The notes beneath the pieces are model-generated. The model ran no database searches. It was not told the origin of the DNA and saw only the letters and a program-made list of their open reading frames with translations. A program made the position numbers and the translations under genes. Below, piece after piece: positions 8,428-41,470 of a stretch of 42,991 nt of DNA. How positions within the stretch are numbered: position 1 is the stretch's first letter; every line of letters begins with the position of its first letter. The DNA is from a virus, in IMG/VR virus record IMGVR_UViG_3300044970_001592, positions 1 to 42,991 of that record; one strand, given 5' to 3'.

Positions 8428-10681
8428 CTTTGTATTGCTCCTCGACCATACGTTTGTAAGTATCAGTGTTTCCTTTCTCAAGGAAGTACGAACCACGAAC
8501 ATTGTCCTTTATGACTATGTTTTTATAAATGTCTTCAGGTTTGTAAAATGGCACATCGGTTAGTCTTTGTGATAGGTAAGAACTCACATCTACTTCTGCA
8601 CCAATTGCTGCAACAATACCTGATTGATCAGCGTCCATATAGTTTGCATTGATAGCATCTTGTTGCTCTTTGTTTGCGGCAACAACTTGCTCAGCACGAA
8701 CCTCGGCATCTGATTTTTCAATCGGTTTCAACACACCAAGAATCTCAAGGTTCATCATGCTTGGTGGTTGATTAAATGTATTTGCCATAGCAAGTGCTGG
8801 GTCAACCAATGCGTTTGTAGTTTCAGCATCTTTTGCGGATTCATCATCAAACTTTTGCTCTGATGATGCAGCAGCGGCAGCAACAATGTTTAATGCTTCA
8901 GCCTCTTGATCTTCTGCTGTTGCCACTTGTTGTGCGTTCTCAGCCATCATTTCTTTGCCAACATCAAAACTCATTTCAGCAGACGCTTCCGCTTGTACAA
9001 TTGCCTCGGCAACTACGGCTTCGGTTGTCGTTTCGACAACATCAGCAACTACAACGTTTGACTCTTGAGTTTGAGTTTCTTCCGCAACAACGACTTCTTC
9101 TGACTGTGTTGTTGTGATAGAACTATCAGCGGCAACCATTGATGTTTCAGCCGCAGCAGCCGAGACTGATTCAGCCTCTGCCACTGATTCATTTGCAGAT
9201 GCTTCAGTCCCAGCAAGAGTTACCGCTAACGCTTCCTGCCCTAACACTCTACCTGTTTCCAACAATTCAGCAGAAGCATCACCTTCATTTGAAGCAACAG
9301 CAATTTCTTCGCTCGTTGTTTCGCTTGATGATGAAACTTCGGCAACTGCAGTTTCAGAAGTTTCGCTTGCGCTTCTTGTTGACGATGAAGAAGATGCAAC
9401 AGTTGACGTTGTTTCGCCAGCAACACTTCCTGCAGCAGTTGCATCAGCAGCCACTGACAATGCCGCTTCAAGAACGTCTTTAGAAATTGAATCAGAAAGC
9501 ACTGATGCCTTTTCTTCATTTTCTAATGTTTTAGCAACAACAACAGTTTCAACTGCAGTGGCTTCCTCTTCCTCATCAGTTGCTTCTTCATCAGCAAGTA
9601 ATTCTTCAATATTTTCTTCCACAACTTCTTCAGAGGCAATTTCTTCTGCAACGAACACTTCTTCAGCAACTGGATCAACTGCTGGTTCTTCATCTTCAGT
9701 AAATGCATCTGATCCGTCATCGGAACCGCTATCGAATCCTGTATCAGCAAGCATTGTTTCATCAACTGCATCGTTTGTTATGCTATCAATAATGCAACTT
9801 GGATCAGTTGGATCGGTTACGCAATTGACTTCAGCAACAGGCGGTGCTATGTTGCTACCGAATTCGCAACTCTTAACAACACCGCCAATTGGATCGCTAC
9901 CCCAGTCGCCGTTTGTGCAAGCATAAGTTCCTGCTTCAAATTCTTGATAAATGTAAACGCCATCAGCACCGTATCTTACAACGCCACGCTCGGTAAGTGT
10001 AAACAATTCATTTTCGCCAGCCAGTCTTTTCCAGTATAGAAAATCTGTTGGAGGTGGTGCTGCAGAATATGTTAAACTTAAATCAAGGGCTCTGACCTGT
10101 GGACCATAATAACCAGCCCAAAATCGATCATCTTTACCCGTAAAACTAATTTGGATTCGTCCAATTTCGGACATATCATATGGGTTGTCAAAGTTTATCT
10201 CACCACCAAATAATGTCCAACCGTTAGTGGTTTGCCCTAATTGGAAATTGTGTGCTTCTAAAATATTATTGTTTGGGTCATAAAATCTAATGTTAGCAGT
10301 CAATGTTCCTCTGCTAAACTCTTGGTTGAAATATTCCCAACTGTATTTGAAACTATCAATCAAATTTCCCTTTGATGGCAACTCACTGCTACCAAACAAA
10401 TTATAATCAACGGTGCCTTGAGCATAGCCAAATATAAAAGTTCCTGTTTGACCGTTGTAGGCAGGAATATTACCACCTGATAAACCACCGCCACCTGTAT
10501 TCAAATTAATGAATCCAGTCCAAGTAAAGTTTGTTCCTGGTGGTGGAGGATTTAATGTAGTGTAGATTATATTCTCTGTTTCACCAGTGGGTGGTGATTG
10601 TGGAATATACGGACCAGGAGTGTACTCCTGCGCGAACGCAGGAGCCACTGCCAATAGAAGTAGCGCGAAAAGTCGCTTCAT
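8420..10681 (-). CDS. Large exported acidic low-complexity protein
   Basis: 753 residues. A Sec signal peptide ends at AFA-Q (residues 1-17). Residues 20-215 look like a beta-sandwich domain (Gly/Asn/Phe/Tyr-rich). Residues 215-300 hold two cysteine pairs. About 300-620 is a Glu/Ala/Ser/Thr/Val low-complexity stretch. The final 110 residues are ordered and end DVPFYKPEDIYKN and a charged tail; I recall similar C-termini in T4-like cyanophage proteins. It should leave the cytoplasm. The gene shares one base with the Asn/Thr-rich exported protein before it, so the two are probably made together. Function unknown. Confidence 0.8.
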   Translation of the reverse strand: MKRLFALLLLAVAPAFAQEYTPGPYIPQSPPTGETENIIYTTLNPPPPGTNFTWTGFINLNTGGGGLSGGNIPAYNGQTGTFIFGYAQGTVDYNLFGSSELPSKGNLIDSFKYSWEYFNQEFSRGTLTANIRFYDPNNNILEAHNFQLGQTTNGWTLFGGEINFDNPYDMSEIGRIQISFTGKDDRFWAGYYGPQVRALDLSLTYSAAPPPTDFLYWKRLAGENELFTLTERGVVRYGADGVYIYQEFEAGTYACTNGDWGSDPIGGVVKSCEFGSNIAPPVAEVNCVTDPTDPSCIIDSITNDAVDETMLADTGFDSGSDDGSDAFTEDEEPAVDPVAEEVFVAEEIASEEVVEENIEELLADEEATDEEEEATAVETVVVAKTLENEEKASVLSDSISKDVLEAALSVAADATAAGSVAGETTSTVASSSSSTRSASETSETAVAEVSSSSETTSEEIAVASNEGDASAELLETGRVLGQEALAVTLAGTEASANESVAEAESVSAAAAETSMVAADSSITTTQSEEVVVAEETQTQESNVVVADVVETTTEAVVAEAIVQAEASAEMSFDVGKEMMAENAQQVATAEDQEAEALNIVAAAAASSEQKFDDESAKDAETTNALVDPALAMANTFNQPPSMMNLEILGVLKPIEKSDAEVRAEQVVAANKEQQDAINANYMDADQSGIVAAIGAEVDVSSYLSQRLTDVPFYKPEDIYKNIVIKDNVRGSYFLEKGNTDTYKRMVEEQYKDE

Positions 10682-12051
10682 TAGCCGCCTACTGATGCTG
10701 CTGGAATATCAGTTGACTTCTCTTGTTCTTCTTTTGCCCAGAATTTCCACCACTTCTTCTTGAAGTCTGGACGTTCTTCTTTATTGCCTGTCCACTGCTC
10801 GGTTGCTTCCTTACCAATCTTACCCATATATGGGCAAGGTGTACCTGCCATTTCCATTGCCTTGAAGACACGCTCGTCTTGGCACATTAGAGAAACAGCA
10901 GCAACCTTCATGCCCATGTCGTATAGGGTCTTGGATAGTTTCAAGCGTTCGCAATTCATGTCACGGACTGCCTTACCAGCAGAAACACCGAACACTTGAG
11001 TCTGAACAGCGCCAGAAACGCCTGACACGCAGACGTCCTGGCTATATGTTGAGATCATTGGAGCGATAGCACTTGCTGGTGGGGCTTTGATCGTTGTTTC
11101 TGACTTTGTGATGTTTTCGTTACGATTGATATTCGTATTTGTGTTTTCAGTTTTTACGTTGCTTTGGCTTGTGCTTTCAGACTTGTTTACGTTTTCGTTC
11201 TTGTTAACAGCAGTTGATGTGCTCACGCTCACGTTGTTGTTATTGTTTGTGTTAACACTTGTGCTATCGTTCTTGTTCAGGTTTGTATTTGTTGAAGTTG
11301 AAACGTTGTTATTGTTATTCGTGTTCGTTGAAGTTGAAACGTTATTGTTATTGTTTGTGTTTACGTTATTTGAATTGATATTCGTATTGTTCGTATTGTT
11401 ATTATTATAAGTCACTTCACCAGACAAGTTATTGTTGTTCGTATTTGTGCTTGTTGACACATTTACATTGTTATTGTTATTGGTATTAAGGCTTGTTGAA
11501 GTGCTCACATTATTGTTATTATTCGTGTTTAGGCTCGTTGAATTACTGACATTGTTGTTAGTATTCGTAGAGGTATTCACATTGGTATTCGTTGAGACAC
11601 TATTATTATTATTCACATTGGTGTTCGTCGAGACACTATTATTATTGTTAGTGCTCGTGCTGTTCACCGTTGACGTATTCACATTGTTATTGTTATTCGT
11701 CGAGGTTGTATTGTTATTATTGTTATACGTCACTTCACCAGACATATTATTATTGTTGGTGTTGACGTTTGTATTCGTAGACGTCGAATTATTCGTGTTT
11801 ACGTTATTGTTATTATTCGTATTCGTACTTGTAGAAGTCGAATTATTCGTGTTAATATTCGTATTGAGATTCGTATTATTCGTCGTCTCAGTACTCGTAT
11901 TAACGTTCGTGTTATTGTTCGTGTTTGTATTTGTCGTCGTTGATGTTGTGTTCACATCAGACGTTGAGTTTACTGTTGAAACTGTTGTGGTCGTTTGACC
12001 GAATGCTGCTGCAGAAAACAACAGCGTGAAAACTGCGAGTAACTTTTTCAT
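10681..12051 (-). CDS. Exported Asn/Thr/Ser-rich repeat protein
   Basis: 456 residues. A signal peptide (MKKLLAVFTLLFSAAAFG-Q) is followed by about 310 residues made almost only of Asn, Thr, Ser and Val, in units such as NTNNNNNVSTST. The motif SGEVTYNNNN is embedded twice. A C-terminal domain of about 125 residues follows, with four cysteines (DVCVSG, MNCERLKL, LMCQDERV, GTPCPYMG) and a basic WWKFWAKEE tail. The Cys domain resembles ones I recall in marine T4-like phages. The repeats look prion-like or surface-fibre-like. A weak late-promoter-like box lies 75-83 nt upstream. Function unknown. Confidence 0.8.
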   Translation of the reverse strand: MKKLLAVFTLLFSAAAFGQTTTTVSTVNSTSDVNTTSTTTNTNTNNNTNVNTSTETTNNTNLNTNINTNNSTSTSTNTNNNNNVNTNNSTSTNTNVNTNNNNMSGEVTYNNNNNTTSTNNNNNVNTSTVNSTSTNNNNSVSTNTNVNNNNSVSTNTNVNTSTNTNNNVSNSTSLNTNNNNNVSTSTSLNTNNNNNVNVSTSTNTNNNNLSGEVTYNNNNTNNTNINSNNVNTNNNNNVSTSTNTNNNNNVSTSTNTNLNKNDSTSVNTNNNNNVSVSTSTAVNKNENVNKSESTSQSNVKTENTNTNINRNENITKSETTIKAPPASAIAPMISTYSQDVCVSGVSGAVQTQVFGVSAGKAVRDMNCERLKLSKTLYDMGMKVAAVSLMCQDERVFKAMEMAGTPCPYMGKIGKEATEQWTGNKEERPDFKKKWWKFWAKEEQEKSTDIPAASVGG

Positions 12052-40686: not shown

Positions 40687-40899
40687 TCAACCCCAGTCCT
40701 TGAAATTACCGCTGGCTTGATTGTCCTGCCAGCCACGAATATACTCCTGACACTCTTCGAGAGTCATTTCTGACTGCTGAATCTCATCAGAGTTATAAGT
40801 GCCGCCCACGAAATAGTGCGGACGAAACGATCGCTGATAGTAACTGTCGGCAGAACCACGATCATACGGACTGCCATGACCACGATCAAGACGCATCAC
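40687..40899 (-). CDS. Conserved small phage protein, DRGSADSYY motif
   Basis: 70 residues. SPYDRGSADSYYQRSFRPHY and the ending ASGNFKDWG match a short protein I recall in very many tailed phages (pattern DRGSAD-x-YY, later a charged helix, then a KDWG-like end). Function unknown. ATGA overlap with the previous gene. Confidence 0.8.
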   Translation of the reverse strand: MMRLDRGHGSPYDRGSADSYYQRSFRPHYFVGGTYNSDEIQQSEMTLEECQEYIRGWQDNQASGNFKDWG

Positions 40900-41162
40900 G
40901 CCACCACCTGCACGCGAGGCTCAGCATTTTTCTCTTCCGCGAGATCATCGAAGAAAGAATTGCCAGGAAGCGGAGCAACAAACGTGTCCGACAGAAATTT
41001 CTTGTCTGTCTTTCCCTGCCACACACGCTTGATCGTGTTGGCTCGGAAAGTGCCGTCTGAAAGAACAGCAGTCACAAGACCGACATAATAGCAGTCATTT
41101 ACACCAACGAAGTCAAGAGATTTGACGACGTCACCAATTTTCACAGTGTTTTCATATTTCAT
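40896..41162 (-). CDS. Hypothetical protein, first gene after leaderless promoter A
   Basis: 88 residues. A beta-rich core (VKIGDVVKSLDFVGVNDCYY, then VGLVTAVLSDGTFRANTI) suggests a small barrel; the tail is charged. No family recognised. ATG at 41162 has no ribosome site. Instead a perfect TATAAT ends seven bases upstream, so transcription should begin on the A of the ATG. Confidence 0.75.
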   Translation of the reverse strand: MKYENTVKIGDVVKSLDFVGVNDCYYVGLVTAVLSDGTFRANTIKRVWQGKTDKKFLSDTFVAPLPGNSFFDDLAEEKNAEPRVQVVA

Positions 41163-41168
41163 AAGACT

Positions 41169-41197
41169 ATTATAACACACGGACATGAAATATACAA
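41169..41197 (-). promoter_or_regulatory. Early promoter A (leaderless mRNA predicted)
   Basis: TTGTAT (41192-41197), 17-bp spacer, TATAAT (41169-41174), then six bases and the ATG at 41162. No Shine-Dalgarno sequence fits between them. The region upstream of the -35 is nearly identical to promoter B. Confidence 0.7.
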
Positions 41198-41232
41198 CAG
41201 AAATAACTCTTGTAAAATCAATAACTTACGAG
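41193..41232 (-). repeat. 40-nt promoter-upstream repeat, copy A
   Basis: Matches copy B (41431-41470) at 38 of 40 bases, including TTGATTTTACAAGAGTT and ending in the TTGTA of the -35 box. In this copy the repeat also covers the last codons and stop of the gene at 41218-41400. Both copies lie exactly 30 nt before the next ATG. Confidence 0.85.
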
Positions 41233-41400
41233 CATCTCTTGGAACACACGTTTTGCCTGTTCAAACGTGGTGTCGTTGAGGCGAATCTTGTTGCCTGTGC
41301 TGCGGCATTCAATCTCATACATGTAATTTCCCACATGCCAGAGTGTGTGGCGAGCACCGAATTTGTCATTTTCAGACATGATATAATGATACTGTTTCAT
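41218..41400 (-). CDS. Small hypothetical protein, first gene after leaderless promoter B
   Basis: 60 residues. DKFGARHTLWHVGNYMYEIE and NKIRLNDTTFEQAKRVFQEM suggest a beta sheet with one helix. No family recognised. ATG at 41400 has no ribosome site; GATAAT ends seven bases upstream. A weaker ribosome-site-free internal ATG (residue 8) is possible. Confidence 0.7.
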   Translation of the reverse strand: MKQYHYIMSENDKFGARHTLWHVGNYMYEIECRSTGNKIRLNDTTFEQAKRVFQEMLVSY

Positions 41401-41406
41401 ACAACA

Positions 41407-41435
41407 ATTATCGTATAAAACACAGAATTCTACAA
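41407..41435 (-). promoter_or_regulatory. Early promoter B (leaderless mRNA predicted)
   Basis: TTGTAG (41430-41435), 17-bp spacer, GATAAT (41407-41412), then six bases and the ATG at 41400. Same geometry as promoter A. Confidence 0.65.
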
Positions 41436-41470
41436 CAGAAAAAACTCTTGTAAAATCAACAACTTACGAG
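41431..41470 (-). repeat. 40-nt promoter-upstream repeat, copy B
   Basis: 38 of 40 bases equal copy A. Here it is intergenic, after the dCMP deaminase stop at 41508. It still contains the LVS-stop-like codons that in copy A end a gene, so it looks like a duplicated gene-end plus promoter. Confidence 0.85.

Follow-up and report, generated by a model that had tools for sequence, protein, structure and literature searches.

Leaderless messages are known from phages, the lambda cI mRNA made from pRM being one of them, and T4 early mRNAs ordinarily carry a leader that includes a Shine-Dalgarno (SD) sequence. T4 late promoters consist of TATAAATA at -10 and have no -35 element, and sigma-70 RNA polymerase starts transcription about seven bases past the -10 element, at a purine. 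In Burkholderia cenocepacia, leaderless mRNAs with a -10 element next to the start codon have been described (PMC4603805). The host protein IHF, whose consensus is TAAnnnnTTGATW (PMC10380432), stimulates the Pe promoter of phage Mu (PMC3820752) as well as lambda pL (Giladi 1998, cited in PMC6528607). T4 early promoters belong to the sigma-70 type and are also conserved in sequence further upstream than the -35 element, and a review of T4 promoters contains no occurrence of IHF (PMC2988021). Finally, PMC4503421, citing Arbiol 2010 and Comeau 2014, describes the PeSL cassettes found in T4-like phages as terminator stem-loops fused to early promoters.

The window analysed here is a stretch of 42,991 nucleotides from a viral record (IMGVR_UViG_3300044970_001592). 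Its minus strand, on which both copies and genes 1 and 2 lie, carries the arrangement TTGTAx-N17-(G/T)ATAAT-N6-ATG twice, ending in ATGs at 41400 and 41162. In copy 1, a 40-nt conserved block (41431..41470) contains the IHF consensus TAAGTTGTTGATT (41454..41466; reverse complement AATCAACAACTTA, that is WATCAANNNNTTR), a match to TAAnnnnTTGATW, and a T6 tract (41439..41444; an A-tract on the opposite strand) nine nucleotides from the IHF core. The -35 element TTGTAG (41430..41435) is separated by a 17-nt spacer from the -10 element GATAAT (41407..41412), which ends 6 nt before the ATG, the six bases being TGTTGT. This ATG opens gene 2 (41218..41400), which encodes a 60-aa protein. The block of copy 2 (41193..41232) overlaps the 3' end of gene 2 and contains the IHF consensus TAAGTTATTGATT (41216..41228, first base at -66 from the ATG). 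It is followed by the -35 element TTGTAT (41192..41197), the same 17-nt spacer, the -10 element TATAAT (41169..41174) and, after the six bases AGTCTT, the ATG of gene 1 (40896..41162), encoding 88 aa. Both genes are predicted to be leaderless, and their products have no assigned function and no PHROG or Pfam match. The two blocks differ at 2 positions (38/40 identical) and end 30 nt before the ATG in both copies, and exact or near copies of the block are present in IMG/VR contigs. Re-reading of the sequence and a repeat search of the window, which recovered the block pair independently (family D12), thus bear out the twin-promoter geometry proposed in the earlier note. Elsewhere in the window, a long array of diverged 36-54 nt repeats occupies positions 11234-11946, within a gene at 10681-12051.

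Just upstream of ATGs 41400 and 41162, the anti-SD duplex energies are +0.3 and +0.9 kcal/mol, i.e. there is no SD sequence, and the median over rough gene calls in the window is -4.6 kcal/mol. That both ATGs lack an SD sequence was therefore correctly noted. The accompanying claim of an SD at nearly all other genes was overstated, as a strict SD core is present at one of the first four ATGs in only 21 of 46 rough gene calls of the window.

A search with the block pattern returned four, then nine viral contigs, and protein searches with the downstream products yielded 71 loci homologous to gene 1 and 60 homologous to gene 2. For comparison of upstream regions, 70 gene-1 loci were picked by protein similarity only, with no use of the block, and gave 44 distinct regions. 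With a -10 element defined as a hexamer agreeing with TATAAT at no fewer than five of six positions (by eye, 4/6 or better was seen in none other), its end lies exactly 6 nt before the ATG in 38/44 regions and 7 nt before it in 6/44. As a background rate, 3459 ATGs that open 60 codons or more were counted in four contigs, and 65 of them (~1.9%) have a TATAAT-like hexamer at 6 nt. In the ortholog regions, the -10-to-ATG distance is kept even where the IHF-to-ATG distance moves by one base. A wider census, seeded with the block itself, comprised 193 distinct copies (the -10 elements of six were assigned by an explicit rule, automatic picking having mis-called some). The leaderless layout is present in 134 of these, at 6 nt in 119, 7 nt in 13 and 8 nt in 2, and since many loci are related, such counts overstate the number of independent events. 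These 134 copies stand before about 20 protein families, with T or C as the base before the ATG in all 134 and a median SD duplex energy near zero (0.2 kcal/mol). The bases that follow the hexamers (TATAAT, GATAAT, TAGAAT and the like) vary, and a -35-like element lies 17 nt upstream of the hexamers; the possibility of T4 late promoters was rejected on these grounds.

The layout goes beyond chance, as it recurs in dozens of related contigs. The earlier note had proposed that both mRNAs begin at the AUG, and had named genes kept with the spacing lost as the pattern that would speak against this. No such pattern was seen among the relatives: the -10-to-ATG distance is kept (6 nt, or 7 in one clade), though the block-to-promoter spacing drifts by a base and downstream genes differ. 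The established sigma-70 start, a purine about seven bases past the -10 element, would fall on the A of the ATG, and the leaderless reading of the cassette mRNAs is well supported at the level of sequence comparison. The clade with 7 nt indicates some slack in the spacing, and a start point off by one or two bases would give a leader of 1-2 nt instead. A TA-rich -10 element about 6 nt before the ATG, the missing SD sequence and the expected start at the A of the ATG are all shared with known leaderless mRNAs. Unlike these, however, the cassette is standardised, is repeated before many phage gene families and has a leadered version too.

In this leadered version, the cassette precedes genes with SD sequences, the coding start lying some 20-60 nt downstream, behind the SD. 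ATA replaces ATG at the same +1 in 14 of 35 leadered copies; the presence of an SD in 35/35 is circular, as an SD core was required to call these copies leadered. One such copy stands before a tRNA cluster. Of the distinct gene-2 orthologs behind the cassette, 9/9 use ATG as start codon, with an SD that is weak or missing (median 0.3 kcal/mol); orthologs that lack the cassette and lie behind another gene have GTG and a strong SD in 7/10 (-6.6 to -10.0). Similarly, the leaderless and the leadered form both occur in the MKxYYEV gene family, depending on the contig. In leadered cassettes of L269, L239, L218, L185 and L281, an ATG at +1 opens a leaderless mini-ORF of 7-8 codons, the stop of which overlaps the next start (TAATG/TGATG); this overlap suggests translational coupling. 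A conserved leader (ATAGGGTGAGGAATTGGTCCCC...GGAAGGAATAG), which could be a structured 5' UTR, follows the cassette at L161:4177-4300, and similar ones occur in L212, L268, L096 and L175.

As for the conserved block, the idea of a phage or host factor site can be sharpened, by consensus match, to host IHF. The block core TAAGTTATTGATT (WATCAANNNNTTR on the opposite strand) matches TAAnnnnTTGATW, and this motif lies at -65 to -67 in 43 of the 44 gene-1 ortholog regions; resampling gives an expectation of 0.25. TTGATT and AA never change, but most N positions and Y do, which is the pattern that would be expected for IHF, the invariance being partly conditioned because it was computed on the 43 consensus-matching regions. 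T-rich positions 22-26 of the profile adjoin the IHF core and are conserved as well, so that an A/T tract flanks WATCAA on its 5' side; at H' of lambda attP, the letters of which were confirmed in lambdoid records, a T-tract likewise lies nine bases from the IHF core. Apparently, the block is a docking site for this host DNA-bending protein. As in Mu Pe and lambda pL, the candidate site lies upstream of a host sigma-70 phage promoter. In contrast to these, it is close (centre near -60) and belongs to a multi-copy cassette, every intact copy of which has one, and the promoters run straight into start codons. A query with the 46-nt consensus gave only weak, scattered phage matches, which may be IHF sites by themselves. 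Block-like copies also occur in unrelated-looking contigs with another downstream layout (L195, L243, L246 and L272; GACATT boxes, repeated copies), and these are perhaps plain IHF sites of other phages.

The slot between two cassette copies is variable. In the window it holds the 60-aa gene, and in L001, L003 and L004 it holds other genes and a GTG version of the 60-aa gene. In L002 the slot is empty and one hybrid copy remains, composed of the left flank of copy 1 and the right flank of copy 2. Homologous recombination between cassette copies would be the simplest reading of this variation.

We propose, with a probability of roughly three quarters, that these sequences represent a repeated, recombination-prone early-promoter cassette combining an IHF site, a sigma-70 promoter and a start codon at +1. 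Each self-contained cassette would offer a host IHF site centred near -60, where IHF would bend the DNA beside the -35 element and aid the loading of host RNA polymerase. At the sigma-70 promoter, with its 17-bp spacing, RNA would start seven bases past the -10 element, at an A, and where this A opens an AUG, the resulting leaderless mRNA could be started by 70S ribosomes or by 5'-AUG recognition, with no need for an SD sequence. With the cassette repeated around the phage genome, genes between copies would be swapped or lost by recombination. The proposal builds on the observed layout, conservation, SD absence, IHF consensus, repetition and gene exchange, and goes beyond them in predicting where transcription starts, that IHF binds and activates, that expression is early and that translation is leaderless.

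The same promoters might be leaderless with the block acting as an extended UP element or as the site of a phage-coded activator, which we consider unlikely. At -40 to -66, the place of alpha-CTD UP elements, the block is rich in A+T, and 'uber' UP/-35/TGn/-10 promoters is a description that has been given to T4 early promoters (PMC2988021). Conservation also extends to some of the N positions in the IHF motif (e.g. T in 42/43). The near-universal presence of the exact consensus 13-mer in the ortholog regions (43/44) argues against this, however, as does its retention in the divergent lineages L044, L054 and L058 despite changed flanks. Alternatively, the ATGs might not be real starts, or the 5' ends might lie upstream owing to readthrough from the dCMP deaminase gene, so that the messages would be ordinary ones. 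The genes do belong to a co-directional cluster and there is an in-frame ATG at 41186. That ATG, however, is absent in many orthologs, lies upstream of the -10 element and has no SD, and ordinary messages would leave both the conserved hexamer-to-ATG distance and the pyrimidine at -1 without a reason, making this highly improbable.

Slimmer still is the chance of a PeSL-type cassette, in which a terminator stem-loop joined to an early promoter would act mainly as a mobile recombination unit. Repeated promoter cassettes in T4-type phages, with different, exchangeable genes between several copies, are common to both, as far as the description of PeSL in PMC4503421 goes, and the single hybrid copy of L002 looks as if the intervening gene had been lost. 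Folding against shuffled sequences, however, found no stem-loop in the block (median z -0.06, 3% below -2; individual blocks from -1.7 to +1.1) or in the 60 nt upstream of it (median z -0.41). The block was therefore rejected as a terminator or hairpin, and the cassette lacks the stem-loop that defines a PeSL; in its upstream part it has the IHF consensus instead.

Both leaderless mRNAs and phage promoters boosted by IHF have precedents, and the novelty of the proposed IHF-leaderless cassette lies in their union in one repeated unit. In the literature searched, no report was found of a combined IHF and leaderless promoter cassette in multiple copies. T4 early mRNAs are leadered and have an SD, whereas the cassette mRNAs are predicted to be leaderless. 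If the proposal is true, the cassette provides a natural system, present in many copies, in which to test leaderless translation, with the same families leaderless or leadered in sister phages behind one promoter. It would also account for T4-type phages swapping small genes without an accompanying ribosome-binding site, and would tie early phage transcription to host IHF. We give even odds to the broader notion that a T4-type lineage runs much of its early programme on such a plug-in cassette. The cassette would then express whatever gene comes to lie behind it, with no ribosome-binding site needed, and toggle genes between leaderless and leadered modes as they move, in one form via a leaderless mini-ORF with a stop that overlaps the start of the following frame.

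The window encodes a family-B DNA polymerase, a dCMP deaminase, Hsp20 and a dUTPase. Its polymerase is 88-89% identical to those of related contigs G001, G003 and G006, 60% to that of G008 and 50% to that of G002, and its best match among deposited phages is to Synechococcus T4-type phages (about 54%). Despite this match, a cyanophage reading was rejected, given that the nine records searched contain no psbA and that tmRNAs of beta type are present. These permuted tmRNAs, matching Rfam beta_tmRNA, are located in contigs G001 (173 kb) and G002 (152 kb), at L161:12763-13112 (+) and L145:8560-8860 (-). Their type suggests an IHF-bearing host among Betaproteobacteria; B. cenocepacia, for example, has ihfA/ihfB. 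No cultured relative was found at the DNA level or for the gene-1 protein, and the bacterial genomes searched contained neither the block nor a gene-1 relative. Two related phage contigs also carry the Rfam COG2908 cis-regulatory RNA (RF02939), at L169:13348-13392 (-) and L145:11099-11143 (-).
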